A DNA stretch of 31,639 nucleotides from the IMG/VR virus record IMGVR_UViG_3300021519_000040, positions 1 to 31,639 of that record; one strand, 5' to 3'. This DNA is from a virus. A program made the position numbers and the translations under genes. Below are positions 7,551 to 27,250 of the stretch, piece by piece. The notes beneath the pieces were generated by a model. The model had not been told where the DNA came from. It did no database searches and saw nothing but the letters and a program-made list of their open reading frames with translations. The first letter of the stretch is position 1. Each line of letters opens with the position of its first letter.

Positions 7551-9334
7551 TTGAGGTGCGCCTTTTTGTACGCCTGATATGCGGCCTCCTTGGCGGGGTC
7601 GGTATATGGAGCGGGTGCCGTCGGTGTTGCGCGAGAAGATTGAATTGTAAGCGGAGTCATGCGGGATATGCGAGGGGCTAAAGTTTTCATCTGCCCGGCA
7701 TACCAACCATCAAAGGCTTCCGGGGACATAGTGATTGGCGCGGCTTCTGCTTCCATTTTAATGGATTGATCGGTTGCTCCAGTTGCCCGCATAACATTTG
7801 AAACGGTTTGCATGGCGTCAGCACGTTGGTTCATGTACTCGACAAAATCGGGATCATTTAAGGTCTTTTTCTCGAAAGCTTGCAGCTTTCCAATGTAACT
7901 TACTTTGCTAAAGTCCAATTTCTTTCCGGCATCACGCACGTTTTGTAAGACTTCAGGCAGTGCGCCTGCAATAAGCGCCTTTGACTGGAACGCCGGATTG
8001 GCGGTCATGGCGGCTATGGCGTGACTGTTAACAAAGTTTGCGCCGGGATTGTGCAGCAAAACGTCAGCTTGTATTTTTGCGTTTCTGCTATTTAAACGTG
8101 TGGGGTCAATTCGACCTTCCGCTACCGCTGTATCCAAAGCGGTTTGTTGTTGTTCATTTAATCCGGCTGAGGCCATTCTGTCCTCACGGTTTTTTTCAAT
8201 TTTAAGCTTTTGTTGGCTTACCCCAAGTTGGCCCTGAGAAGTTCTAACGTTGGCCTCCGTAGCCGCAATGCTTCTGTTTGCAATTTCTTGCGTTTGGCCG
8301 TTAAGGAGAAGCGTTACCTTTTCAGAATCATTAACTTGAACAACCGAGCCGGGCGGGAACCCAGCGGCCTTTATTTCGTCGGGAGTTGCAAACCGTTCTT
8401 TGGGTCTAAGGGCAGCTGCGGCAATCGCGTCAAGTATTCCTTTTGCGCCGGCTGGATCGGAAGCGGTGGCCGCATGAGCTGCGGCCTTTACGTCGGGCGG
8501 AACGTTAAGGCCATCAATGGCTTTGCTAATTGAGGCTAAGCCGCTCTGCCGTTCATTTTCTTTCGCGTCGGCCTTCAGCTTTTCAGTGGTCAACGTGTCG
8601 ATTTGTTTGCGTGTATCAGCAATCATCGGCACAAGCTGCGCCCTTTGTGTGGGGCCAATTTGCGGGCTAATTGCAATGGTTTGGAGTTGCGACAATTTGG
8701 CCTGAGCTTGGCTCAAGGGGTCGCTGTAAACATTTGACGGCGCAGCCGGGGGCGCTTGTTGCATAGGCGGTTGTGGCATGGGCGGCGCGCTTGCCGGAGG
8801 CATAGCTTGGGGCGGAGGCGCGTTACCCTGAAGGGCCTGGGCCAAGCCGGCATTTTGAGAAGCCGCTTGCGGACCCATTGGATTATCCGCCACGGGCGGA
8901 GCTTGAGGCATGGGGGCGGGCGGACCAGCATCAGACGGCGCTGCGCCACCCATAGCCAAGACAGAGGCCAATTGCGATCCTGCATTTTCAGGCGGAGCAT
9001 TGGGGGCGCTCATCGCATCCATAGTCCCTGGACCGGCGGGGGCCTGGGGCTTTGCGCCGGCATTAAGCGCATCCATCATATTGGATTGAGCCAACGCTTC
9101 GGCCCCCGCCTGCCCCTCAAGGGCGCGTTTTTGCATGACGTTTCCGCCATAGCTTTGGAGTATTTTAGCCAGAATCGCAGTCATGGGGATCGGGGCCTGC
9201 GTGCCCTTATACGATTGAATATCAATCGGGGCATTGGCTTGCTGTTGCAGCATCTCAGCCATCTTTTGCTGATATTGCGCTTTAGCAAGCTGATCGGCAT
9301 AAGACGGCGCGGTTGTAAGGCTTATGCTTGACAT
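7547..9334 (-). CDS. Proline/glutamine-rich internal virion protein (595 aa)
   Basis: The N-terminal 50 residues are helical (SYADQLAKAQYQQKMAEMLQ). A disordered P/A/M/Q-rich linker runs from about residue 90 to 205. After that come helical segments and a conserved-looking C-terminal domain with FQSKALIAGALPEVLQNVRD and DFVEYMNQRADAMQTVSNVM. The pattern resembles virion proteins of Bcep22-like podoviruses that are packaged inside the particle and ejected. I know no catalytic domain in it. The start codon overlaps the stop of the preceding 899-residue repeat protein by one base (TAATG), and the stop overlaps the next start (ATGA), so three large virion proteins are translated as a coupled set. 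Confidence 0.6.
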   Translation of the reverse strand: MSSISLTTAPSYADQLAKAQYQQKMAEMLQQQANAPIDIQSYKGTQAPIPMTAILAKILQSYGGNVMQKRALEGQAGAEALAQSNMMDALNAGAKPQAPAGPGTMDAMSAPNAPPENAGSQLASVLAMGGAAPSDAGPPAPMPQAPPVADNPMGPQAASQNAGLAQALQGNAPPPQAMPPASAPPMPQPPMQQAPPAAPSNVYSDPLSQAQAKLSQLQTIAISPQIGPTQRAQLVPMIADTRKQIDTLTTEKLKADAKENERQSGLASISKAIDGLNVPPDVKAAAHAATASDPAGAKGILDAIAAAALRPKERFATPDEIKAAGFPPGSVVQVNDSEKVTLLLNGQTQEIANRSIAATEANVRTSQGQLGVSQQKLKIEKNREDRMASAGLNEQQQTALDTAVAEGRIDPTRLNSRNAKIQADVLLHNPGANFVNSHAIAAMTANPAFQSKALIAGALPEVLQNVRDAGKKLDFSKVSYIGKLQAFEKKTLNDPDFVEYMNQRADAMQTVSNVMRATGATDQSIKMEAEAAPITMSPEAFDGWYAGQMKTLAPRISRMTPLTIQSSRATPTAPAPYTDPAKEAAYQAYKKAHLK

Positions 9335-12033
9335 TAGCTATACCCCGGAATTTTAATCGGACTAATCATTCCTGCCGCGCCACCCAAAAGACCACCAAGC
9401 GCGTTAACGTTAGCATTACGCGCCGCCATCTGTTGCCCGTAAACGTCCTGAGCCGCCTGGGCCTGGTTCTGCGTAGCTTGATAAACCGGCGCAGCCGCGA
9501 CGTTAGCCCCGGTGTATTGTTGGAACTGTGGGTTTTGAATCTGCGAACTGCTCATCAGCGCATTAATCGAGTTCAGGGGCTGATTGTAAAGGCCAAGCTG
9601 CTGTTGCAGGTATTGCGCCGCAGCGGTGTTGCCAAACTGCGCCGCGCCAAGGTTCTGGTTGTAGTTTTGCGCGCCGGCTTGATTGTAAAGCCCGGCGGAT
9701 GTTGCGCCTTGGCCGTAGTTCTGTCCGACAGCTTGGTTGCCAAGCTGTTGAGCGCCAAGAGCTTGGCTGTAATTCTGGCCGATGGCCGTGTTGTATAGCC
9801 CGGCAGACGTAACGCCTTGGCCGTAGTTTTGACCAACGGCTTGATTGCCGGCTTGCTGGTTGGCAAGGTTGGATTGGAACTGGGATAATTGGGCGGCATT
9901 GCCAAATTGAGCATTGTTGGACGCTTGGTTGTATTGTTGGGCTTGGGCTGCGTTTTGGGCCGCATTTGATTGCATACCTTGGCCGAAGTTTTGACCAACG
10001 GACTGGTTTCCAAGCTGTTGAGCCTGAAGCCCTTGACCAAAGTTTTGACCCACGGCTGAATTTTGGGCTGCGTTTGCCTGAAGGCCATAACCGACGTTTT
10101 GACCAATCGCTTGGTTGCCGAGTTGCTGGGCGCTAAGCCCTTGGCCGTAATTCTGACTAATGGCTTGATTGCCGAGTTGCTGGGCGGTAACACCCTGGCC
10201 GAAGTTTTGGCCCATAGCAGCATTTTGGGCAGCATTTGCTGCGGCAAGCTGGCCGAAGTTTTGGCCGATAGCTTGGTTGCCCAACTGTTGCGCTGATAGG
10301 CCCTGACCATACGCTTGTGCTTGCGCGGCATTTTGCGCTGCGTTGGCTTGCAAGCCTTGCCCGAAGTTCTGGCCCAGAGCTTGGTTGCTCAGTTGTTGAG
10401 CGGTAACGCCTTGGCCGAAGTTTTGACCAACGGCTTGATTGCCAAGTTGTTGAGCCTGAAAGCCTTGGCCGAAGTTCTGCCCTACAGCGGCATTTTGGGC
10501 TGCGTTTGCCTGGAGACCAAGGCCAACATTCTGGCCGATAGCTTGGTTGCCAAGCTGTTGAGCTTGGAAACCCTGACCGAAGTTCTGGCCGATGGCCTGA
10601 TTGCCCATTTGCTGCGCCTGGGCAGCCTGCCCGAAGCCCTGACCCAAGGCGGCATTGTACATACCGGCCTGGCCCACAGCCTGACCGTAGCCCTGCTGGT
10701 TGGCACTCATATCGAGGCCGATGCCCTGCAAGGCAGCCTGGCTCAGAAGGTCGTTCTGGCCCTGCTGCTGCTGGCGCATGGCGTTATTGTACGCCTCTGA
10801 GCCGGGCGTGATGCCCTGGTTGGCAAGCTGCTGGGCGGTAGCCGCAGACTGCTGGGCAAGCTGGGGCTGGAGGCGGTTCATGATCGCCTGCTGGCCTGTC
10901 ATACCGGCATTGACCGGCATGGCCGCAACGCCAGACATATCTGCGCCCGTCCTTAAGCCGCCGAACTGGCCCGCATTGACGCCCTGCGCTTGCCCATAGG
11001 CACCGGCATTGATACCGCCTGCTTGACCATAACCAGAAATGTCAGGCCCTTGGGCCGTGCCAAATTGACCAGCGCCAACGCCCCCGGCCTGGCCGTAAGC
11101 CCCTGCATTTACGCCACCGGCTTGGCCGTAGGGAGATGCGCTAAAGCCTTGTATTTGGCCGTAAGAATTAGGATTTAAGCCGCCTGCTTGTCCGGCTTCG
11201 TATGCTCCATACCCCGTGGCGGTGCCGTATTGACCGGCATTAACCCCACCCGCCTGTCCGTATTGACCGGCATTGATACCGCCCGCTTGCCCGTAGCCAG
11301 CAATATTTGGCCCCTGGGCCATGCCGTATTGACCGGCACCGACGCCGCCCGCCTGGCCGTATTGTCCGCCGGTCGGAGCGTTTTGCACATTGCCGTAACC
11401 ACCAAAGCTGGTCTGCAGGTTTGGACCAGCAACACCGCCTTGCGCCATGCCGTATTGCCCAGCGGCAACGCCGCCGGCTTGCCCATAGGCGGACGGATTG
11501 ATGCTTCCCGCTATGCCGTATTGACCCGGCGAGGGTCCGTAATCCAACGGGCTTTGTTGCCCAAGCGATGTTTGGATGCCGGGGCCGGTATAATTAAACG
11601 GCTTGTTTAGAACGCCGGTCGCCTGTTGAAGCCCTAGCAGGCCAAGGTTCGCGGTTCCGGCCTGTACCTTCTGTTGCGCCGTCAATGCCGCCTGGGCATC
11701 GGGCGTAAGGGTCTGCGTGACGGTGGGCTGTAGGCTACCCGGCTTGGTGAATTGGTCGATTGTTGGGGATGCGCCCTTGGGTTGAAGGTTCCCGTATTGG
11801 TCATAGGTGTCTTGAATGGAGCCGTAATTCTTCATGGCTTGGTCGTAACCAGCCTGATCGACAACGGGGGCGGTGTTGCCGTAGCTTACGGTTTGATTGC
11901 CATACGGGCTGATGATGTTGGGATTTGACAGCGTAGCCGTTTGCTGAGCGCCAGCTTGGTTAGCCGCTCCTTGGGCCGTCGCAGCCGCAGCGTAGTCAGG
12001 TGCTGCGGGCGCTTGTGGTGTACTTTTTCCCAT
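9334..12033 (-). CDS. Q/N/G-rich repeat virion protein (899 aa)
   Basis: An extreme low-complexity protein. Residues 1-172 are a Pro/Gln/Ala-rich head containing LTPDAQAALTAQQKV. Residues 173-359 are about fifteen units with an 11-residue period, consensus GQAGGVNAGQY, each ending in Tyr or Phe. Residues 360-454 are a helical spacer. Residues 455-814 are twenty consecutive units of exactly 18 residues, consensus AQQLGNQAIGQNFGQGLQ, alternating in part with ANAAQNAAVGQNFGQG-type units. The last 85 residues contain a hydrophobic GLLGGAAGMI. Charged residues are nearly absent. Position (after the GNAT gene, before two other internal virion proteins) matches the Q-rich structural proteins of Bcep22-like phages. 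It is probably a structural or ejected protein; the mechanism is unknown. An AGGGAA site precedes the ATG. Confidence 0.65.
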   Translation of the reverse strand: MGKSTPQAPAAPDYAAAATAQGAANQAGAQQTATLSNPNIISPYGNQTVSYGNTAPVVDQAGYDQAMKNYGSIQDTYDQYGNLQPKGASPTIDQFTKPGSLQPTVTQTLTPDAQAALTAQQKVQAGTANLGLLGLQQATGVLNKPFNYTGPGIQTSLGQQSPLDYGPSPGQYGIAGSINPSAYGQAGGVAAGQYGMAQGGVAGPNLQTSFGGYGNVQNAPTGGQYGQAGGVGAGQYGMAQGPNIAGYGQAGGINAGQYGQAGGVNAGQYGTATGYGAYEAGQAGGLNPNSYGQIQGFSASPYGQAGGVNAGAYGQAGGVGAGQFGTAQGPDISGYGQAGGINAGAYGQAQGVNAGQFGGLRTGADMSGVAAMPVNAGMTGQQAIMNRLQPQLAQQSAATAQQLANQGITPGSEAYNNAMRQQQQGQNDLLSQAALQGIGLDMSANQQGYGQAVGQAGMYNAALGQGFGQAAQAQQMGNQAIGQNFGQGFQAQQLGNQAIGQNVGLGLQANAAQNAAVGQNFGQGFQAQQLGNQAVGQNFGQGVTAQQLSNQALGQNFGQGLQANAAQNAAQAQAYGQGLSAQQLGNQAIGQNFGQLAAANAAQNAAMGQNFGQGVTAQQLGNQAISQNYGQGLSAQQLGNQAIGQNVGYGLQANAAQNSAVGQNFGQGLQAQQLGNQSVGQNFGQGMQSNAAQNAAQAQQYNQASNNAQFGNAAQLSQFQSNLANQQAGNQAVGQNYGQGVTSAGLYNTAIGQNYSQALGAQQLGNQAVGQNYGQGATSAGLYNQAGAQNYNQNLGAAQFGNTAAAQYLQQQLGLYNQPLNSINALMSSSQIQNPQFQQYTGANVAAAPVYQATQNQAQAAQDVYGQQMAARNANVNALGGLLGGAAGMISPIKIPGYS
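9592..10671 (-). repeat. Twenty in-frame 54-bp tandem repeats inside the 899-aa gene
   Basis: Twenty back-to-back 54-bp units, each coding 18 residues around GNQAIGQNFGQG. Units are diverged at the nucleotide level, with synonymous changes, so the array is selected as protein rather than freshly expanded. Confidence 0.9.
10957..11517 (-). repeat. 33-bp coding repeats (11-residue GQAGGVNAGQY units)
   Basis: About fifteen units of 33 bp code for GQAGG(V/I)NAGQY and variants, with two irregular units near residues 200-225. Glycine-rich spacers flank single aromatic residues. Confidence 0.85.
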
Positions 12034-12472
12034 ATCGGTTCCCTAAGAAACGGCAGTCAGTTTTCTTCAGTGTATACAAGATCATATCGCCGCCAGGGAC
12101 AGCGTCTTTAATGCGCCCCTCCTCAGTAAATCCCATTTTTTCGACCATCTTAATGCTTTTGGCATTATGACTGCCGACCGGGGCTATGGCTTTTTCGATG
12201 TCGCAAACGTTGTAAGCGTAATCGAATATCGCCCCTATGAAGGCTGGAGTTATGCGATCTTTGATGACTATGTGGACCACCATCGAACGCCTATTCCAGT
12301 TCTCATAAATAATCCCGGCTACGATCTCCTCATTCTTTATAAGCCCGATAGCTTGTGAGCGTTCTGCAAAGAATCCCGCGTCAAGCTCATTAGCTACCCA
12401 ATACCCGATTTTCGGGCCGCTTTCTATACGCCAGCCCATCCGGCCTGATAAACCACATCTGTTGATGACCAT
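11996..12472 (-). CDS. GNAT-family N-acetyltransferase
   Basis: A 158-residue GNAT fold protein. The acetyl-CoA region shows the familiar ending APVGSHNAKSIKMVEKMGF followed by TEEGRIKDAV; upstream strands are IVAGIIYENW and MVVHIVIKD. A GNAT gene at this place in the tail region is a recurrent feature of Bcep22-like podoviruses, where it may modify a virion or host protein, but the substrate is unknown. It overlaps the hub gene by up to 49 bases and the repeat-protein gene by 38 bases. The start at 12472 is uncertain; an in-frame ATG at 12439 (MGWRIESG) would reduce the first overlap to 16 bases. Confidence 0.75.
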   Translation of the reverse strand: MVINRCGLSGRMGWRIESGPKIGYWVANELDAGFFAERSQAIGLIKNEEIVAGIIYENWNRRSMVVHIVIKDRITPAFIGAIFDYAYNVCDIEKAIAPVGSHNAKSIKMVEKMGFTEEGRIKDAVPGGDMILYTLKKTDCRFLGNRYGKKYTTSARST

Positions 12473-13989
12473 TCGACCTGAAGGCCGCTACTGGCACTTT
12501 GCAATTGCGGTGCGCCGCAATAGCCAATGCCGGTAATGCCGATCCAAGTGTTTTGGATAGCGCCGTCGCTGCCCCACATTCCCGTATCCCATTTGGACGT
12601 ACCCCAAACGGCTGAAGTCGTAGGCGTATAAGATAGCGGGGCCGTTGTGTTGGAAGTATCAAAGTCGATATTCATGCCGACAAAGATACTGGGCGAACCA
12701 TTGGAAAAGATGGATGGCCTAGCGCGGGTGAAATACTTTTTTACCGCCCGTTGCTCAAAATAGTTAAACGCCTGAAGGGCGACTGTTTGGATGTTGGACC
12801 CGTTGTCAGCGTAGCTCGTATCCCACGCCTTGTAGACCTTGTTGGTGCCGCCGAAATAAGGATCGTCGTTAAACGTTTCCCAGCAGCTAGCCCCCCAGCC
12901 CGTAAACTGACACCATGACTTCGTAATCGTGTTCATTACGTACTGCTGCTGGTAACCCGTGGACACCGGCACGTTAATCCAGACCGCATTGTTTTTGGCG
13001 TTGTAAAACACCTGCCAGCCCACGGACGCATGGTTTCCGCCGTAGGTGGTGGTAGCTGCCGTAATAGCCCCCTGGATCTTGTCAGAGAGGGCTACGCGGG
13101 GGTCGAGCCTAGATGACTGTAGGGAGCCCGCCATAGGCATTAGGCCGTCATAGGTAAGGATTAGGAGGTCGCCGCCCCATTTGAGCATGGGACGGGTGCC
13201 AACGGGCGAACCTAGCTTCCAGACGCCGATCAGCGCCCATGTGGCCGCAGCGGCAGGGTCGGTGCCGCTATAGACGATAACTTCACCCATGCTAGTGATG
13301 AAGACGATGTTATCGTCCACGCCATAGCCGGCGTCGATTGTCCATGTATCGAAATCAACGATGTGACCGCCAAACCTGGCAACGGAACTTAGGTCCACCT
13401 TTTGCGCCGCACCGCCGACCGCGTTGGTGGGCAGATACCAAGCTACCAGCGTGCTTTTTTGGAAAAACCAAAGGCGGTTTTTAAACAAAAGGGTATTGAT
13501 AAGTGTCGTGGTGGTTACGCCAGTAATGGCAATGGCGGACGTGCCATCCACTCTCAACCACGTTGTGCCGTCCCATAGGATCGGCTTATCGGCACCGTTG
13601 ACCGCGTATAGGTAGTTAACGCCGGCGGTGCTGGTTACGTTGGTATATTCCCAAATGCCGTTGGTTAAGCCCGTGACTTTGGGAGCGCCGACAGCGCCGG
13701 CGGTGGTTACGTCGTACAGCTTGCCGGTCGAGGTGATGGCGTAAAGGTAGACCGAATTCCCCGCCGCGTAGTTCATAAGGGTCTGAACTTCGCCGTCTAG
13801 GCCGGTACACCATTCGGAATAGCCGCCGCGCAGGACCACGTTACTAACCGTTGGGAACATATTGGTTAGCGTAATGGCGTCCGTGGGGGCCATGTTAGCA
13901 TAGCTATCGCGCACGTTCCAGCCGCCCACGGGGGCCGGTAACGACTCGACTTGAGCCGACGCTTTCTGAACTAAGGAGCCAACCCTCAC
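12424..13989 (-). CDS. Tail hub / stabilisation protein, beta-propeller type
   Basis: A 521-residue beta-rich protein in the position of the P22 gp10-like tail hub or nozzle. It opens with SLPAPVGGWNVRDSYANMAP and TNMFPTVSNVVLRGGY, a start shared by many podovirus tail accessory proteins. Blade-like repeats follow, such as YLYAITSTGKLYDVT, YLYAVNGADKPILWDG, NRLWFFQKSTLVAWY and DNIVFITSMGEVIVYSG. Proteins of this kind seal the DNA channel below the adaptor and hold the tail tip. It follows the adaptor gene with a four-base overlap (stop/start near 13986-13989). Assignment rests on these patterns and gene order. Confidence 0.75.
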   Translation of the reverse strand: MRVGSLVQKASAQVESLPAPVGGWNVRDSYANMAPTDAITLTNMFPTVSNVVLRGGYSEWCTGLDGEVQTLMNYAAGNSVYLYAITSTGKLYDVTTAGAVGAPKVTGLTNGIWEYTNVTSTAGVNYLYAVNGADKPILWDGTTWLRVDGTSAIAITGVTTTTLINTLLFKNRLWFFQKSTLVAWYLPTNAVGGAAQKVDLSSVARFGGHIVDFDTWTIDAGYGVDDNIVFITSMGEVIVYSGTDPAAAATWALIGVWKLGSPVGTRPMLKWGGDLLILTYDGLMPMAGSLQSSRLDPRVALSDKIQGAITAATTTYGGNHASVGWQVFYNAKNNAVWINVPVSTGYQQQYVMNTITKSWCQFTGWGASCWETFNDDPYFGGTNKVYKAWDTSYADNGSNIQTVALQAFNYFEQRAVKKYFTRARPSIFSNGSPSIFVGMNIDFDTSNTTAPLSYTPTTSAVWGTSKWDTGMWGSDGAIQNTWIGITGIGYCGAPQLQSASSGLQVEWSSTDVVYQAGWAGV

Positions 13990-14891
13990 CGCCCGTAGCC
14001 ACTGTCAGGAATGTTATCGTAACCAATAAGGACGTTGCCGGGACGCGGGGCGAAGGACAGGTTGGCCGCTGATGTATCTTGGGCCACGGAGGTTTCAAAT
14101 TCGGTAAGATAATCGCGGTATATCGCCGTGGTGTCGAAGCCCTTGGCCTGGAAGTATTTCAGTTTGGTCGATAGGACCATAACGCGGTCGGGATAAATGC
14201 AGGTATCGCTATCTAGCGTAAAGCTGTTTTTGACGCTTCCATCAGCCGCCCTAGCCCAGCCCTTGCTGCGGTATTCAAAGCCGAGATATTCATCCGTGGA
14301 ATTGCCGGGCCAGATTTGGAAATAGTTGCCGTACAACCGCCAACGGATGCGCGGGCCGGTGCTGATATAGCCCGACAGTAACCATTCCCACTGCTGCGCG
14401 CTTTCGGGGCCGAGCATTTCCCAATGTTTCGACTTGTCCCATTGGGTGCGCGGGACGATGGAGTCGTAATCGGACGGCAGGTCGTATTTGACCTTTTGGA
14501 AATAGATCGTGCCGCCCGTAGCGGCTACGTCGGAATACTGCGACACCGTAACCTGGGTCGCAGAATCCACACTGGTAATGAAAGTGGCGTTAGGAAAGCC
14601 GTTCCCCACAACCATGTAGGTCGTATCTAGACCTGCGGTTGAGGGGATGCCGGTGATCGTAAGGGCCGACGTTGTATAATTGCCGGTGGTCGTCTTGTAC
14701 TGGGTGAAGAACGAATTGGACTGGGTTAGCTCGCGCCAATCAGCTTTTCGCAGCAATTCGTATCCGCTAGCGTTCATTAACGCTAGGATTTGAATTACGT
14801 CTTGATTGGTGTTGCCAGCTACGCCGACCGGGGTAGGAACGCCCAGTTCATTCGTAGCTTGCTGCACCAACTGAAGCATCGTGGTCGCCAT
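13986..14891 (-). CDS. Head-tail adaptor / tail accessory protein (P22 gp4-like position)
   Basis: A 301-residue protein. It begins with a helical segment (MLQLVQQATNELGVPTP) followed by VIQILALMNASGYELLRKAD, typical of podovirus adaptor rings that dock under the portal. A beta insert (about residues 65-130) follows, and then FQIWPGNSTDEYLGFEYRSK and CIYPDRVMVLSTKLKYFQAK, also typical of the family. The start at 14891 overlaps the upstream gene by 44 bases; an ATG four codons later (14879) is an alternative. Its product would connect the portal to the beta-propeller hub encoded next. Confidence 0.75.
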   Translation of the reverse strand: MATTMLQLVQQATNELGVPTPVGVAGNTNQDVIQILALMNASGYELLRKADWRELTQSNSFFTQYKTTTGNYTTSALTITGIPSTAGLDTTYMVVGNGFPNATFITSVDSATQVTVSQYSDVAATGGTIYFQKVKYDLPSDYDSIVPRTQWDKSKHWEMLGPESAQQWEWLLSGYISTGPRIRWRLYGNYFQIWPGNSTDEYLGFEYRSKGWARAADGSVKNSFTLDSDTCIYPDRVMVLSTKLKYFQAKGFDTTAIYRDYLTEFETSVAQDTSAANLSFAPRPGNVLIGYDNIPDSGYGR

Positions 14892-15426
14892 CAGTCAATT
14901 CTTTCCTTGGTCGCCCAACGCGGGGCCTACGTTCTTCCATCAAGATGCTCATCTGTTCCTTAAGCGACTCAAGCTCCAACCGCGTTTTGGTCAATTCGTC
15001 CGCGTGTTTAGACAGGCCCTTGGACGACAAGAACGCTTTTGCGCGCTCCCTCATAGCCGTCCCGCCCATGCCAATACGTTGGATTTGCGAGTCTGAAGCC
15101 GTTGCCACTTGGTCAACGGTTTGGAACTTAAGGATTTGCAATTCTGCCAGTTGAACTTCGCTGATGTCTTCAGGACGCTCTTTGTGCCAGTCAATGAGGG
15201 GTATCCCGATTATAATGTTCTCATTGTTTTGCATTTGATAGTAGAGCCATTGGCGCGGGAACCGCTCTTTATGATGTTCCCGCACCACCGTTTCGATGAT
15301 GGTCGTCTTATCGCCCGGAGCCATTATCCGAATAAACTTCTCACCCTTGTAGGGGGCTTTGTCGTACTCGTAGAATTCGACATAGAGTTGAGAATCGGCG
15401 TTTGAAATATCCGAATCGAGAGCCAT
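14848..15426 (-). CDS. Virion-region protein with AT-hook-like C-terminus
   Basis: A 192-residue protein of unknown function, conserved in type among podoviruses between decoration and adaptor genes. The N-terminal half has LYVEFYEYDKAPYKGEKFIR and RQWLYYQMQ, suggesting a small beta/alpha domain. A helix (AELQILKFQTVDQVA) and a coiled coil (about residues 145-165, LELESLKEQMSIL) follow. Then comes a basic RRPRVGRPRK segment (residues 167-175, GRP core at 171-173) that matches an AT-hook minor-groove binding motif, and an acidic tail. I would guess a DNA-contacting capsid or connector protein, but this is inference. Confidence 0.55.
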   Translation of the reverse strand: MALDSDISNADSQLYVEFYEYDKAPYKGEKFIRIMAPGDKTTIIETVVREHHKERFPRQWLYYQMQNNENIIIGIPLIDWHKERPEDISEVQLAELQILKFQTVDQVATASDSQIQRIGMGGTAMRERAKAFLSSKGLSKHADELTKTRLELESLKEQMSILMEERRPRVGRPRKELTDGDHDASVGAASYE

Positions 15427-15438
15427 TTGGGGTGTCCC

Positions 15439-15801
15439 TTATGCAGTTAGAACGGACGCCCAAGTGGTAGCACTGGGCGCAAAAAGCAGTACGGTTTTGG
15501 CGGTAGCAAGCGAAAGGCTGGTAGCGCCGGCGTTAATGGTGGTCGAGGTATTGAACGGATAAACGGTAACGGTCTGGCCGCTATCATTGCGGATACCAAC
15601 GAAGGCACCAGCTTCAGTCGGCTGGAGCTTGACGCCGGTGCTGGCCGAGCTGGTAGTAATCGTATTCCATACCGCCGATAGTTGAAGCGCGTCAGCAGCG
15701 GTGGAACCAAGGGCAACAAGGGCAACAGCGCCGTCACCGTTGATGGAAGTGGTAGCCAGCGGGGAAGTGCCCGAAGCAAGAACGCGAGAGGGGATTGGCA
15801 T
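15439..15801 (-). CDS. Small beta-rich virion protein (decoration-like)
   Basis: A 120-residue protein rich in Ala, Thr, Ser and Val with hardly any charge. It starts MPIPSRVLASGTSPLATTSI and ends TTWASVLTA, with strands such as VTVYPFNTSTTINAG between. Similar small all-beta proteins are common in head and tail operons, and I believe they decorate capsids or fibres, but I cannot name a family. It stands between the fusion enzyme and the AT-hook-like protein, both on the same strand. Confidence 0.5.
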   Translation of the reverse strand: MPIPSRVLASGTSPLATTSINGDGAVALVALGSTAADALQLSAVWNTITTSSASTGVKLQPTEAGAFVGIRNDSGQTVTVYPFNTSTTINAGATSLSLATAKTVLLFAPSATTWASVLTA

Positions 15802-15802
15802 G

Positions 15803-17770
15803 TTAATGTCCTTTTATCTTAACGAACCATGTGAAGTTGTCGCCTAGTTCTAATTCTAGTCCATTTGCCGCGACAAACTCGTCCACAGCACGCTTAACTC
15901 CCCACTGGGGAAAATCAACATTATCATAATCGTGGCCGCAAAGTAATCCACCAGGGCGAACCTTGCTAGCCCACGCCTCAATGTCAGCGTGACAGCCGTC
16001 ATAGCTATGGTCGGCGTCTATAAAAACAAAGTCCAAACCGTCCAAAATGTCCTTAGCCGCATCCACGGACTTCATCCTATGGATAATGCCCCGGCCCTTA
16101 AATGGCGATACGGCGCGCTTGGTCATCGCCATATAGCCCTCTTGGGCGGCATTGCTTAGCGTGGCATGGTAATCGCCCGACGCTTCCAGGCTGGGCTCGT
16201 AGTCGCCCCACGAGTCCACCATATGCAGGACCATTTCCGAACGGTTCATTAGTAGCCGTTCGGATAGTTGCCCGGCAAAAACACCGATCTCAACGCCCGT
16301 AACAGGGCCGGCAGGGATGCGGGCCAGTATCTCACGCGCCCGCGTATCCACCGCGCTTTCAGGTACACCCATCCGGGCTATGTGGCATAGCAACCCGTCA
16401 CCGGCGACGGTAATGGTTCCGGTAAAGCGTTGGGCGTAGTCGATGAAATCCTGAGATTGCCCGATCATCCACGGCGCGCACTTGAACGTCCGGTCGCCAT
16501 AGATCAAATCCATGACGCGCTCGCCGTTGTTCCACTTTTGCTCGTATGCGTGATGTTCGCCGTTGTCGTAACAGCTATCAATGCCAAGGAGGTGGATAAC
16601 GCGGGTTCCGCCCAGTTCGGCTATCAGCATGGCCTTCAGGGCGACCGTGGTGCCTGCGCCTAGCAAATGTACCGGGCGCTCGACTTCGCCGCGTAGCAAG
16701 TCCTCAACGCCTTCTGACTGGCAATGAAACAGGGTTACGTCGTAGCCGTCCAACGCATCAAAGATTGCCGGGTCGCATTGCGACGATATGTAATAGCGGA
16801 TTGACTTTTGCGGCTGGGAAACAAAGGCCAGATTGTCGGCGCGGGCGTCTAGGATCACATGCACATCTGGCGTCAGGTCGTGACTGATTAGGTAATTACA
16901 GACGCCGTTTACCGCCCATATCTCTTGGCCGTAGCCCCGGCGCTTACGCAATGTGTCCAGTTCAAACTTCAGCGATGGTCCGCCGCCGACAATGCAAACC
17001 TGCCGATCATGGGTTTGCCAATCGAAATCAAACCATTTCAGGTCGCGGGCGCAAGCCGACCTAATGTTGTCGTGAATAACGCTAGTTTCGGTATTGCAGA
17101 CCGTATCCATTTCCACGCGAGTCATTCCGCCTTCTTTCCACATTCCGGGAACCCAGCCATCTAGCACTTCATGCGGGCGCGGATGACCATGAAACACAAC
17201 AACAGCCGCCTTGTCGGGGGCCGAGCCGCCTGAGACTTTGTAGCTGACAAAAGCGTCGGGCAGTACATCCTGCCATATGTCAGCCTTGCCGATATAGGCA
17301 CGTTCGATCCACGATTGATCGCCGCCCATAATACAGGGCATCCCGGCGCGTTCCCAATCGCGCCAAAGCGATTCCGTGGCCCTAGAAACGCGCCATGCCA
17401 TGACGGACGATTGCAAGCCTTCCGCACGGTAGAAATCGCGCAGGATGGCAAACTCGCCGGCATAGTTGGCTACCGCGTCTAGGCGTCCCGCCAACACGGT
17501 ATCAAGGTCCAGATAAAGGACGCGATCATCCCAATTAAATACGCCGGGCTTGAATAAGGCTAGCTTGTTCCACCAACCGTCTAGGCCGGGGTGCGGTAGG
17601 TCGCGGACTTCAACCCCGTATCCATAATCGCCGGGGGTATCTGTGAAAACAATGAACTTGCCGGCATAGCCCTCAGGCAGGTTGCGGCGGACCATATCGT
17701 TTAGATTGCGGACGTATTCGACGCCCCGGCCAAGGTAGTTACCGGCGTTAACACATATGACGTTTAGCAT
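15803..17770 (-). CDS. Three-domain fusion: glycosyltransferase, DUF115-like domain, SAM methyltransferase
   Basis: A 655-residue enzyme made of three recognisable parts. Residues 1-215 resemble a GT-A glycosyltransferase: LDGWWNKLALF, the D-x-D motif in YLDLDTV (D88/D90), GGDQSW and a C-terminal VVFHGHPRPHEV. Residues about 245-470 carry the DUF115/Maf-type signature VCIVGGGPSL (262-267 GGGPSL), IWAVNG, VHVILDAR (308-310) and HLLGIDS, known from motility-linked glycosyl- or sialyl-transferases. Residues about 485-655 are a Methyltransf_24-type SAM methyltransferase: VTGVEIGVFAG (494-500), FIDADHSYDGC (583-593) and GGLLCGHDY. It lies between capsid and tail genes and would be made late, so glycan decoration of the virion or host surface is plausible. 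The acceptor is unknown. The start directly follows a terminator hairpin. Confidence 0.8.
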   Translation of the reverse strand: MLNVICVNAGNYLGRGVEYVRNLNDMVRRNLPEGYAGKFIVFTDTPGDYGYGVEVRDLPHPGLDGWWNKLALFKPGVFNWDDRVLYLDLDTVLAGRLDAVANYAGEFAILRDFYRAEGLQSSVMAWRVSRATESLWRDWERAGMPCIMGGDQSWIERAYIGKADIWQDVLPDAFVSYKVSGGSAPDKAAVVVFHGHPRPHEVLDGWVPGMWKEGGMTRVEMDTVCNTETSVIHDNIRSACARDLKWFDFDWQTHDRQVCIVGGGPSLKFELDTLRKRRGYGQEIWAVNGVCNYLISHDLTPDVHVILDARADNLAFVSQPQKSIRYYISSQCDPAIFDALDGYDVTLFHCQSEGVEDLLRGEVERPVHLLGAGTTVALKAMLIAELGGTRVIHLLGIDSCYDNGEHHAYEQKWNNGERVMDLIYGDRTFKCAPWMIGQSQDFIDYAQRFTGTITVAGDGLLCHIARMGVPESAVDTRAREILARIPAGPVTGVEIGVFAGQLSERLLMNRSEMVLHMVDSWGDYEPSLEASGDYHATLSNAAQEGYMAMTKRAVSPFKGRGIIHRMKSVDAAKDILDGLDFVFIDADHSYDGCHADIEAWASKVRPGGLLCGHDYDNVDFPQWGVKRAVDEFVAANGLELELGDNFTWFVKIKGH

Positions 17771-17784
17771 TATTCCCCACGGTG

Positions 17785-17812
17785 AAAACTACGCCCCCCC
17801 GAAGGGGGGCGC
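17785..17812 (-). terminator. UUCG-loop terminator after the capsid block
   Basis: On the minus strand: GCCCCCC, TTCG tetraloop, GGGGGGC, then GTAGTTTTC. The stem is seven to eight GC pairs and a short T run follows. It lies immediately after the decoration gene and before the fusion enzyme, as expected for reducing transcription downstream of highly expressed capsid genes. Confidence 0.75.
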
Positions 17813-17820
17813 AGAGCCTA

Positions 17821-18363
17821 CTAGGTAATCGGGCCTTGGAAATGCGGACGGTTCATCGAGCAAACCACGGTAGAAGTCGTGGAAGTCACGGTGGCGAGGT
17901 TCGCAGAGGCCAAGCCGAGGATGTTCTTGCCCGCAGCCGAGGTTTGCATCAGGCGACCAGTGGTGGCCGATTGATACATACGACGGGTGCCGGCAGGGTC
18001 CACCTTAACGGCGCTTTTCTTCACAACGGCAAGGCCGCTGATCTGATACCAACCGAACGACGCAGCCAGATTGGCCGACATCGCAACGGCCATCGGCTGC
18101 GACAGGTTAGCCGTATTCGGGCTAAGTGCCGTTTGCCAAGTCGTCGGGCTGTAGGTGACGCACGAGCCGACGACCGTGGACGCTACGCCAAGGAGAAGAA
18201 TGAACTCCCCTTCGCCATAGGTCGGATCGAAAGCGCGGCAAATCATGCCCAGGGACGCGGGAGGGGTGGGAATGGCAGAAGAGCCATTCGCCATCGTTAC
18301 GCCAGCATCGGTATTCGCGATCTGGAGCAGCCCGACTTTGGGTTCGTCAAAAGTATAAGCCAT
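17821..18363 (-). CDS. Capsid-adjacent virion protein, probable decoration protein
   Basis: A 180-residue, Ala/Thr/Ser-rich protein beginning MAYTFDEPKVGLLQIANTD. It contains FGWYQISGLAVVKKSAVKV and a beta-rich C-terminal half (ATVTSTTSTVVCSMNRPHF). The gene immediately follows the major capsid gene, with a ribosome site between, and precedes the hairpin terminator, the usual place of a decoration or head-stabilising protein. I recognise no named family, so the role is inferred from position and composition. Confidence 0.55.
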   Translation of the reverse strand: MAYTFDEPKVGLLQIANTDAGVTMANGSSAIPTPPASLGMICRAFDPTYGEGEFILLLGVASTVVGSCVTYSPTTWQTALSPNTANLSQPMAVAMSANLAASFGWYQISGLAVVKKSAVKVDPAGTRRMYQSATTGRLMQTSAAGKNILGLASANLATVTSTTSTVVCSMNRPHFQGPIT

Positions 18364-18377
18364 GTGATTATGCTCCC

Positions 18378-19379
18378 TTAAGCGATCAAAACGCCTTGGA
18401 ACTGCGCGCCCGAACAGGTCAAGTTACCCGCCCAGCCGATCAGTTTCACAATGGCGTCTTGGTTAACCGATTGGCGCTCACCGCCAACAGGAACAAAGTT
18501 GCGATCCACATGGGGCCGGAACATCAAGTATTTGCTGTTCAGGAAGAACATATGGTTAGCGGTAGCGGACGCGCCGATACCACCATCAAGCACAACGTCG
18601 GAAGCCATACCAGCGCCATAATACTTCAGGGCGGCAAAGCCAGCGCCAGCCATCGACGAACCGGAGTCCGAGATGCGTTGGATGGATTGCAGCGACTGAA
18701 GATAGAGGCGGTAGTAGTTATTGTCAGCCACGATCAAATCGGGCTTATCGGTGCCACGGATCAGCTGGACGGCCAGGGCATCCATGTATTGTTGGATGTT
18801 CGAAGCAGTCGTAGCCGCGCCGCCGTTCGTCACCGCCGAATAGGCAACGGATTGCCAAAAGGTGAAAGACGCACGGTTGATGCCGCCGTAGGTGCCGGAG
18901 GTCGGTACATCAGGAACGGCAGCGCCCAGGCCGGTAAGGTTCTTACCGCTGTTGCCGGTGCCGTCGAGATATAGATCGCCGCTGATACGGTTGGCGAGTT
19001 GGGCTTCGGCAACATTCATACGACCGTCAAGCAGGTCGATGATGGCTTCCTTACCGCTGTTCTGGATCATTTCCAGGCCAGAGATAGTTACCGCCGAAGC
19101 GTATTGCGTGATGGAGAACTGAGCCGCCGAGATTGGCGAGTTCTGGGACACGTTCAGCACTTCGTAACCGGAATAGCTGTTCGTGTTGTTGGTGGTGCTG
19201 TCGTTGTACATGATTTCTTGCAAAATCACGTTACCGCCGGAGAACGTCTTAACGTTTCCCCGGTCCTTTAGGCGACGAAGCAACGCATTGTTGTTCGTCA
19301 CGTTGTCGGCCAGCTCACCACTACGGCTTTGGATATTCGTCGCAATGATGTCGCTGATCGAGCTATTGGCGAAAGCCAT
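18378..19379 (-). CDS. Major capsid protein
   Basis: A 333-residue HK97-fold type capsid subunit. It begins MAFANSSISDIIATNI, and the N-terminal arm up to LLRRLKDR (residue 40) is followed by NVKTFSGGNVILQEI, a pattern I associate with a group of podovirus major capsid proteins. Later segments fit the E-loop, spine helix and A domain: ANRISGDLYLDGTGN, PDLIVADNNYYRLYLQSLQS and MFFLNSKYLMFRPHVDRNF. It stands between scaffold and decoration genes and has a good AAAGGG site upstream. The arm (residues 3-40) reappears in an early 84-residue protein at 1838-2092. Identification as capsid is well supported by order and family pattern. Confidence 0.9.
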   Translation of the reverse strand: MAFANSSISDIIATNIQSRSGELADNVTNNNALLRRLKDRGNVKTFSGGNVILQEIMYNDSTTNNTNSYSGYEVLNVSQNSPISAAQFSITQYASAVTISGLEMIQNSGKEAIIDLLDGRMNVAEAQLANRISGDLYLDGTGNSGKNLTGLGAAVPDVPTSGTYGGINRASFTFWQSVAYSAVTNGGAATTASNIQQYMDALAVQLIRGTDKPDLIVADNNYYRLYLQSLQSIQRISDSGSSMAGAGFAALKYYGAGMASDVVLDGGIGASATANHMFFLNSKYLMFRPHVDRNFVPVGGERQSVNQDAIVKLIGWAGNLTCSGAQFQGVLIA

Positions 19380-25596: not shown

Positions 25597-25913
25597 GTGA
25601 AGATTCCGACAGCCATGACTTCAACGCCAGCGCCCGTGGTAACTTTCCACGCGCCGTTGGCCGACACCGCATTTACCTCGATATTGTAAACACCAATGCC
25701 GCCGCCGGGCGAAGCGGGCAAAACGGTGTGGGTCAAGATGCCAGCGCCCGTACCGTCAACAATTAGCACGTTACCAGTCGCAGCGGTGGACACCGTGCAG
25801 ATAAGGCGGTGCAGGTAATCACCAACCGCGCCCGTTATACCAAGGGTTTGGGCCGAAGAACTAACCGCAACATGCTCATATTGATAGCGATATGGGTTAT
25901 TTACGCCGCTCAT
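25593..25913 (-). CDS. Small beta-rich head protein after terminase
   Basis: A 106-residue protein when started at the ATG at 25913, which overlaps the terminase stop (ATGA) and has a GGAGG site seven bases upstream; the longer frame to 25949 lacks such support. It reads MSGVNNPYRYQYEHVAV, followed by strands such as HRLICTVSTAATGNVLIVDG and ends VEVMAVGIFT. It looks like an all-beta structural protein. I know no function; its place between terminase and portal suggests a head component. Confidence 0.55.
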   Translation of the reverse strand: MSGVNNPYRYQYEHVAVSSSAQTLGITGAVGDYLHRLICTVSTAATGNVLIVDGTGAGILTHTVLPASPGGGIGVYNIEVNAVSANGAWKVTTGAGVEVMAVGIFT

Positions 25914-27250
25914 ATTCTTTGCCTCCTTGGCTTTCTTTGCGCGGCCCACATATCGTTAAGTGTGGCCGTATTGCCGGAACCGACCATTAATGGCCGTTCT
26001 TGGTTGATAATGGCTTTTGCCGGCTCATTGCGCCACGCAATCGCCATCATGCGGAACGCATCCGCCGCATGGCTCGTCCAGTCATGCCGGGGCGTCGCCC
26101 TATACGCCTTCTTGTCTTCGTCGTATTCGCGCTGATATTGCCGCAACGATTCAATGCCGGCATGGCACCGTTCTTGGTCAAAATAGACCTTCGGCAACAT
26201 CATGCGTACCGCCTGGATGCCATCCTGCACGCTCAGGTCGGGTACGATGGCTAGGCTTTGCATCCCTAGATATTCGCCCATTTGCTCAATGATCGACTTG
26301 CCTTGCGCCGCTAGGGTCTTGGCCTTGGCGTCGTGCGGCAGGAAGTGCCGCGCATAATGGTAGGGCTTGCTCGTAATGACGTTGGCAAGCTCCTGTATGC
26401 TAGAGCCAGACACGGCATGGAAATCAATTACGCGGATTTCATTGCGCGCCATCTGATACCACCAGATCGCCGTGTCATCCTTATAGCCCAAGTCCCACGC
26501 CGTAAACGTTTGCAGGGCGGGATCGTATGGCACGCTGCGTATACGGCCTTCGTCCTGGGCAACGCGCATCTCAAGCCCATAATACGCGCCTCTAATAGCA
26601 GCTTCAAAGCTGCACTCGTATTCCTGAAGATATTGATCCTCCGAAATTTGCGACGCAGCGGCTTTAAGCTCCGAATCCGGTAACAATCCGCTCGTTGACG
26701 CCTTCAGGGTCAACAGGAACCAGTCTTTGTCCTTATTGCTGATCGCGGTGTCGTAAATGTCCCAAAACTGGTTTTTGCCCTTGGGCGTACCGCCAAAGAC
26801 CGCCCAGCCTAGCTTGTCAGAAAGCGTAGGGCGAATAACATTACCCCAGACGCTAGGTCTGAAGTCACCATACTCGTCCATGTAGATGCCATTGAAGCCC
26901 AAACCCCGCATAGCGTCCGCATTATCCGCCCCAAACAGCCTAATCTGCGCGCCATTGACCAACGTAATCTGCAATTCGGCTTCATTGGTTTGCTTAATGA
27001 TCGGTTTCGCGTACCACTTGAAATAATCCCACGAAACGCTCTTAGCCTGACTGCGATACGGCGCAATATAGCCAAACATGGGGTTAGGGCTGGTACTCAT
27101 CACCGCCTTGGCAATGATGTCATTCACCGCGCTAACCGTCTTACCGGCCCGGCGATGCGCCACAAGGCACGCCCAACGCTGGGTGCGCTTGTGGAACGGC
27201 ATAAACGCCGCCCGTGCCTTGTATGGAAGCTCTATTCGTCTTTCGCCCAC
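25910..27250 (-). CDS. terL: Terminase large subunit
   Basis: A 446-residue DNA-packaging motor. The ATPase has a Walker A variant AHRRAGKT (residues 31-38) and a Walker B GIYMDE (121-126). GGTPKGKNQFW gives the coupling motif. The nuclease domain shows AWDLGYKDDTAI with D253 and a late HAADAFR with D397, the acidic residues of the RNase-H-like site. It cuts concatemeric DNA and pumps it through the portal encoded two genes downstream. The start is GTG at 27250, inside the end of the small-subunit gene (19-base overlap). Identification is secure. Confidence 0.95.
   Translation of the reverse strand: MGERRIELPYKARAAFMPFHKRTQRWACLVAHRRAGKTVSAVNDIIAKAVMSTSPNPMFGYIAPYRSQAKSVSWDYFKWYAKPIIKQTNEAELQITLVNGAQIRLFGADNADAMRGLGFNGIYMDEYGDFRPSVWGNVIRPTLSDKLGWAVFGGTPKGKNQFWDIYDTAISNKDKDWFLLTLKASTSGLLPDSELKAAASQISEDQYLQEYECSFEAAIRGAYYGLEMRVAQDEGRIRSVPYDPALQTFTAWDLGYKDDTAIWWYQMARNEIRVIDFHAVSGSSIQELANVITSKPYHYARHFLPHDAKAKTLAAQGKSIIEQMGEYLGMQSLAIVPDLSVQDGIQAVRMMLPKVYFDQERCHAGIESLRQYQREYDEDKKAYRATPRHDWTSHAADAFRMMAIAWRNEPAKAIINQERPLMVGSGNTATLNDMWAAQRKPRRQRI

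Follow-up and report, generated by a model that had tools for sequence, protein, structure and literature searches.

A GT8-like glycosyltransferase, Maf-like and methyltransferase fusion in the head-tail block of an environmental phage, with a possible role in virion glycosylation

The chlorovirus PBCV-1 encodes A064R, a protein of 638 aa which, in the available text of PMC9614988, is described as carrying a retaining, Mn-dependent GT-A glycosyltransferase, a cation-independent inverting glycosyltransferase representing a new family, and a methyltransferase, which jointly build the terminal, methylated part of the capsid N-glycan. Among phages, the mycobacteriophages Che8 and Rita have been described as encoding glycosyltransferases and as having capsid proteins that are glycosylated (according to the accessible parts of PMC11256854). 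Maf enzymes move nonulosonic acids onto Ser/Thr residues of flagellin, with that of C. botulinum also using CMP-Neu5Ac and CMP-Kdo (available text of PMC11339370), and their site of action is cytoplasmic (available text of PMC4065374). Among the titles listed from the open-access literature, none concerned a Maf-like enzyme of a phage, and in one of the papers listed the match was to DUF1156.

The DNA analyzed here (the window) is a 31,639-base IMG/VR virus record from a phage known only from environmental DNA. The head-tail block on its minus strand has the order terminase, portal, major head, decoration protein, fusion, s120, p192 and tail genes, with the following features.

25910–27250, minus strand: terminase
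18378–19379, minus strand: major head protein (phrog_9953, E 3e-105)
17821–18363, minus strand: decoration-type virion structural protein of 180 aa (phrog_29386), putative acceptor
17789–17814, minus strand: GC-rich 11-bp hairpin with a UUCG loop, between the decoration gene and the fusion
15803–17770, minus strand: fusion gene, 655 aa, comprising a GT8-like glycosyltransferase (GT), a Maf-like (PF01973) domain and a sugar-O-methyltransferase-like domain
17123–17770, minus strand: GT-A (GT8-like) glycosyltransferase domain, aa 1–216 (phrog_1962; LgtC and glycogenin structures)
17501–17509, minus strand: DLD motif, aa 88–90
16361–17065, minus strand: Maf-like/PF01973 domain, aa 236–470, the conserved anchor of the locus (PF01973; Maf 5mu5)
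16970–16987, minus strand: GGGPSL motif, aa 262–267
16544–16585, minus strand: GIDS ... HHAY segment, aa 396–409
15806–16360, minus strand: methyltransferase (MT) domain, aa 471–655 (Methyltransf_24; MeT1, MycF)
16001–16021, minus strand: IDADHSY motif, aa 584–590
15439–15801, minus strand: s120, a Ser/Thr-rich protein of 120 aa directly downstream of the fusion, possible alternative acceptor
14848–15426, minus strand: p192, conserved, the downstream edge of the slot (phrog_20268)
13986–14891, minus strand: tail protein (phrog_6013)

Elsewhere in the window, a GNAT-like acetyltransferase gene (11996–12472) overlaps the end of a tail gene and is found at this position in most relatives; in the record of Mx8 it is labeled an acyl-CoA N-acyltransferase and potential holin. 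A protein of 899 aa, rich in repeats of the form GNQAIGQNFGQG, is encoded at 9334–12033.

The fusion gene is a single intact open reading frame with an ATG start. The initial annotation had read it as one 655-aa protein fusing a GT-A transferase with a DLD motif, a Maf/DUF115-type domain with GGGPSL and a SAM methyltransferase, encoded between the capsid block and the tail genes. Profile searches and predicted structure confirm all three domains, and the gene is flanked by the decoration protein on one side and by s120, p192 and tail genes on the other. A search for the same three-domain order, which had been proposed as a check, found it in at least 17 IMG/VR contigs beyond the window, one of which (L104) is cut at the GT end. 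Compared with four homologs (L002, L003, L008, and L068), dN/dS ranged from 0.09 to 0.12 for the whole gene and from 0.07 to 0.12 for the individual domains, part of the dS values being close to saturation. Because the GT–MptE–MT order recurs in other contigs and dN/dS is low, the gene is, judged from these alignments, under purifying selection and neither a product of chance nor decaying. The fusion protein contains no hydrophobic stretch of the membrane-anchor kind and has no match in PADLOC.

The N-terminal domain was identified through the glycosyltransferase profile phrog_1962 (aa 24–212, E 6e-28). In an AlphaFold2 model of the whole fusion (23 sequences, mean pLDDT 83.2, pTM 0.68), aa 1–216 matched the GT8 structures LgtC (Z 15.9 over 204 residues, 3.5 Å) and glycogenin (Z 15.8), and Foldseek agreed with the structure matches of all three domains of the fusion. 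Residues W66, W67, K69, D88, Q120, D151, Q152, Y177, K178, and H194 are invariant in 14/14 GT rows, and H194 may be the C-terminal metal-binding His of the kind found in LgtC. The first Asp of the DLD motif (D88) is thus kept throughout, while the second (D90) is kept in 8 of the 14 fusion rows, with Ser in five and Gly in one.

For the central domain, the PF01973 profile covered aa 255–403 (E 6e-17; 62.4 bits against a gathering cut-off of 34.6). A model of this domain alone (32 sequences, pLDDT 94.2) matched Maf 5mu5 with Z 22.2 over 221 residues at 3.0 Å, followed by the archaeal pterin diphosphokinase 8sd5 (Z 15.5), SteA (11.7), Cst-I (11.1), Cst-II (10.7), and mammalian sialyltransferases (about 8 to 10); in the whole-protein model the Maf match extended over aa 189–468 (Z 21.6). 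A profile built from 15 phage central domains likewise returned Maf first (E 1.1e-11), with the pterin kinase at 1.3e-5, and the Kdo-transferase WaaZ gave a weak match (E 0.02). P265, S266, D308, R310, H349, D398, H406, and H407 are invariant in 14/14 fusion rows, the last three within the GIDS ... HHAY segment. In predicted structure the domain is therefore Maf/sialyltransferase-like and nearer to Maf than to the archaeal pterin kinase, a shared fold not being proof of function; the Pfam name “MptE-like” is accordingly misleading for it.

The C-terminal domain matched the Methyltransf_24 profile over aa 493–615 (E 9.5e-13; 49.4 bits against a gathering cut-off of 26.3), with its SAM and acidic motif residues conserved. 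Residues E494, D585, D587, H588, and D614 are invariant in 13/13 full Methyltransf_24 rows, the middle three belonging to the IDADHSY motif; the 14th fusion row (L236) has a methyltransferase of another family, FkbM/Methyltransf_21. The best structure matches of aa 448–655 were MeT1 (Z 18.1) and MycF (Z 17.4), and sugar O-methyltransferases are represented among the matches by MycF, CalS11, NovP, and SpnH.

To place the fusion among its relatives, the slot, defined as the region from the capsid gene to p192/tail genes, was read in several sets of loci. A scan with the fusion protein gave 6 loci, two of them full-length; scans with the capsid protein and with an alignment of the central domain were read for the best 80 loci of 590 and the best 80 of 564 matches, respectively; and searching the genomes of 84,980 species of bacteria and archaea with a capsid alignment gave 66 loci. 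The HMMs used for reading were built from the same loci, which makes the gene labels partly circular. The sets overlap by 9 contigs and contain many loci that nearly duplicate one another; the locus counts therefore do not represent independent events.

Among the close capsid relatives (88–97% identical; best 80 of 590 matches), 80 loci were examined, 25 were dropped for an incomplete slot and 55 were readable, 45 of these having the Maf-like domain. In 18 it is fused to a Methyltransf_25-like domain, 14 have it without a fused or adjacent partner, 8 have separate MptE, GT-B-like and MT genes, and 5 have the GT–MptE–MT fusion. The decoration protein is present in all 45 and in none of the 10 loci without the domain, which have a c5-type protein of 88–106 aa instead. 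Of 66 bacterial-genome contigs examined, 56 were readable and 7 have the Maf-like domain, again always with the decoration protein (7/7), which also stands without the domain in 12 of the 19 readable contigs that bear it. In phage-collection records the domain was found in 0/9 and the decoration protein in 3/9. The set seeded with the central domain (best 80 of 564 matches) comprised 77 loci examined, the other 3 having already been numbered, and the decoration protein was found in each of the 59 readable ones. As the decoration protein also occurs without the Maf-like domain, the co-occurrence is one-way, and the linked genes may be exchanged as a block.

Wherever it could be read among the matches listed, the Maf-like domain lies between the decoration protein and the tail genes, and it is retained in every cassette form found among them. 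Its GT partners are of at least two types and its fused MT partners of at least three families (Methyltransf_24, Methyltransf_25-like, and FkbM), with a Methyltransf_11/23 gene occurring adjacent to it; a GT–MptE–FkbM fusion also occupies the slot. The three-domain description given initially can thus be refined, in that the conserved core is the Maf-like domain rather than the whole fusion, and the GT and MT partners are swapped around it. On a quick capsid tree (101 representatives from 129) the domain switches between present and absent 13 times, and supported branches force a minimum of 8 of these switches. A tree of 47 central domains has 2 label changes for the fusion, 5 for MTb and 1 for the operon type.

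A number of variants were observed in the slot. Separate Maf-like, GT-B-like and methyltransferase genes occur in L033, L035, L036, L039, L043, L046, L059, and L069, with a GT8-like gene in addition in L046 and L059, and the HAY motif is lost in the aligned Maf-like domains of this operon-type group. From its sequence we read the c6 protein, to which no library gives a name, as a GT-B enzyme. Tandem Maf-like genes, of which one carries a fused GT or methyltransferase, are found in L168, L169, L171, and L172, the last being cut off upstream. The order decoration protein, s120-like protein, Maf-like domain is seen in L064, L071, L074, L058, and L083; the first three have a second s120 copy after the Maf-like domain, and the latter two end inside the Maf-like gene. 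A protein of 151–154 aa inserted between the capsid gene and the decoration or c5 gene (L019, L020, L029, and L051) looks, by sequence, like an HNH homing endonuclease. Six loci (L030, L040, L058, L078, L086, and L177) have a lone phrog_1962-type GT located ~5–6.6 kb upstream of the capsid gene and upstream of portal; four of them have a Maf-like gene without a fused GT, and two of the contigs end before the slot. This lone GT was considered as the missing partner in phages with MptE alone; it was present in 4 of the 8 such loci with enough upstream sequence among the matches listed, too few for a conclusion.

The hairpin in the gap between the decoration gene and the fusion had been interpreted as a terminator just before the gene that may set its level low. 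A GC-rich hairpin is indeed there, and one was found in the gap of 13/15 readable fusion loci among the matches listed. However, outside the window and L011 the sequence following it has no clear T run in the fusion loci for which it was displayed, and hairpins are also present in 11/14 loci that have the decoration protein and no cassette (among the matches listed). We therefore do not regard it as an intrinsic terminator, and a low level set by it found no support either, a terminator scan of the window giving 5 sites against 10.7 in shuffles. A few homologs had at one point suggested a hairpin specific to the fusion, which the wider tally contradicts. Strong GC hairpins follow the decoration gene in relatives, with sequences that differ by lineage and also where the cassette is absent; perhaps they protect the 3′ end of the mRNA rather than terminate transcription.

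The Maf-like domain is locked to the decoration gene, and this points to an acceptor in the virion. The decoration protein is the most likely candidate, with s120 second. Ser/Thr content was considered as proof of the acceptor: it is 0.215 in decoration proteins accompanied by the Maf-like domain (118 proteins) and 0.150 in those without (15 proteins), and in the tract before a C-terminal RP motif it is 0.45 and 0.18, respectively, the motif having been found in 105/113 decoration proteins with the domain, 5/15 without and 0/8 of the operon type. A tail protein, taken as a control, follows the same trend, with a dense Ser/Thr stretch in 102/128 cases with the domain and 19/71 without, and the enrichment was therefore dropped as evidence for the acceptor.

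The reading we prefer, with a probability of roughly 0.5, is that the fusion is a soluble trifunctional enzyme that equips a virion protein, most likely the decoration protein, with a methyl-capped glycan. It would probably be made late, together with the structural genes. The GT8-like domain would add one sugar from a UDP-sugar donor and the Maf-like domain the other, probably from a host CMP-sugar (nonulosonic acid or Kdo), on surface Ser/Thr residues of the virion protein. Transfer would take place in the cytoplasm before or during assembly, as in the cytoplasmic O-glycosylation by Maf, and the C-terminal domain would O-methylate a sugar hydroxyl, leaving the glycan capped, with shielding or altered adsorption as the possible benefit. 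As the Maf-like domain is paired with GT and MT partners in several ways, sugar transfer followed by methylation would form one pathway. The retention of the domain in relatives, with exchange of its partners, suggests a capped sugar coat on some part of the phages' own particles. Scanning of the window proteins revealed no gene of a nonulosonic-acid or Kdo pathway, as would be explained by the CMP-Kdo that most Gram-negative hosts contain. A point against the scheme is the loss of the second Asp of the DxD motif in 6/14 GT rows. The annotation had left the site of the methylated glycan as virion or host surface, and of these the virion is favored by the decoration-gene neighborhood, the host surface less so.

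Action of the enzyme instead on a glycan of the host surface (LPS or capsule), which would prevent superinfection or keep progeny from readsorbing, is an unlikely explanation though the strongest of the alternatives. In its favor, lipo-oligosaccharide is made by GT8 relatives such as LgtC, the Cst sialyltransferases resemble the central domain in fold with the weak WaaZ match beside them, and a stand-alone gene of this GT family occurs in P1-type phages. However, every readable locus with the Maf-like domain, among the matches listed, has it next to the decoration gene, the fusion is without a membrane stretch, and neither an integrase nor Gtr-type genes were found among the window proteins scanned. 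Slightly less probable again is a moron slot downstream of the hairpin, filled with interchangeable sugar-related cargo the acceptors of which vary by phage, so that there would be no fixed virion acceptor. Several architectures as well as absences at one site, the GT lying elsewhere in the genome in half of the informative MptE-alone loci, and the occurrence of the gap hairpin without a cassette all agree with such a slot, but every cassette form keeps the central domain and, among the matches listed, always with the decoration protein.

We consider a metabolic role improbable, with the PF01973 domain acting, as archaeal MptE does, as a diphosphokinase of pterin or similar: the Pfam name and the 8sd5 match would fit this, but Maf is clearly closer both in structure (Z 22.2 vs. 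15.5) and by profile (E 1e-11 vs. 1e-5), and the partners are GTs and sugar-type MTs. Glycosylation or methylation of the phage DNA to give hypermodified bases is hardly credible, in that the “DNA methyltransferase” label of PHROGs for the MT match phrog_2675 is set against top structure matches to small-molecule/sugar O-methyltransferases and GT8 with no DNA enzymes, a Z of just 4.3 between T4 alpha-glucosyltransferase and the central domain, and no base-hypermodification gene recognized among the window proteins scanned.

Glycosylation of a virion protein by the fusion would fit into a broader picture, which we offer tentatively and at less than even odds. In the large and mostly uncultured Mx8-like group, a Maf-type protein O-glycosyltransferase may stand in the head module, tied to the decoration protein and served by swapping GT and MT partners, as a modular capsid glycosylation that would use host CMP-sugars and would have converged on the GT–GT–MT design of A064R. 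If true, this would be a widespread virion-glycosylation system whose acceptor is predicted and whose enzymes are few; to our knowledge, few systems of glycosylated phage virions have been described. The label “pterin diphosphokinase MptE-like” on phage proteins probably conceals glycosyltransferases, and, if the picture holds, glyco-engineering would gain Maf-type enzymes whose acceptors are not flagellin.

Compared with cultured phages, Mx8 has a capsid about 53% identical to that of the window and a common gene order around the slot, but in Mx8 and related cultured phages the slot is without an MptE-like cassette (9/9 phage-collection records). PmgQ of P1 and HdmD of P7 belong to the same phrog_1962 GT family (27% identity to the N-terminal third of the fusion), and their alignments, unlike the fusion, have no MptE or MT part. 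Two proteins of uncultured Caudovirales phages named “MptE-like” in UniProt, A0A6J5PVH5 and A0A6J7XC21, are of similar length with predicted structures and are 41 and 33% identical, respectively; these are catalog names only, and the pterin-kinase label hides any other domains they may have. The GT genes of Che8 and Rita lie near the 3′ end of the genome and no Maf-like domain is named for them in the available text of PMC11256854, whereas the fusion lies in the head-tail block. The HH after the GxD motif of Maf from Magnetospirillum magneticum (5mu5) aligns with the HH of the fusion. Maf has N- and C-terminal domains of its own (available text of PMC11339370) where the fusion has GT8-like and Methyltransf_24 flanks, and Maf acts on flagellin, whereas the fusion is linked to no flagellin gene and is flanked by capsid, decoration and tail genes. 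In function, the nearest parallel is A064R of PBCV-1, which in the portion of its description available has the GT, GT, MT order in one viral protein, an order matched by the fusion provided that its central domain is taken as a GT. A064R belongs to an algal virus and to an N-glycan with rhamnoses (same source), whereas the second GT of the fusion is Maf-like, and the two are likened by description of their design.
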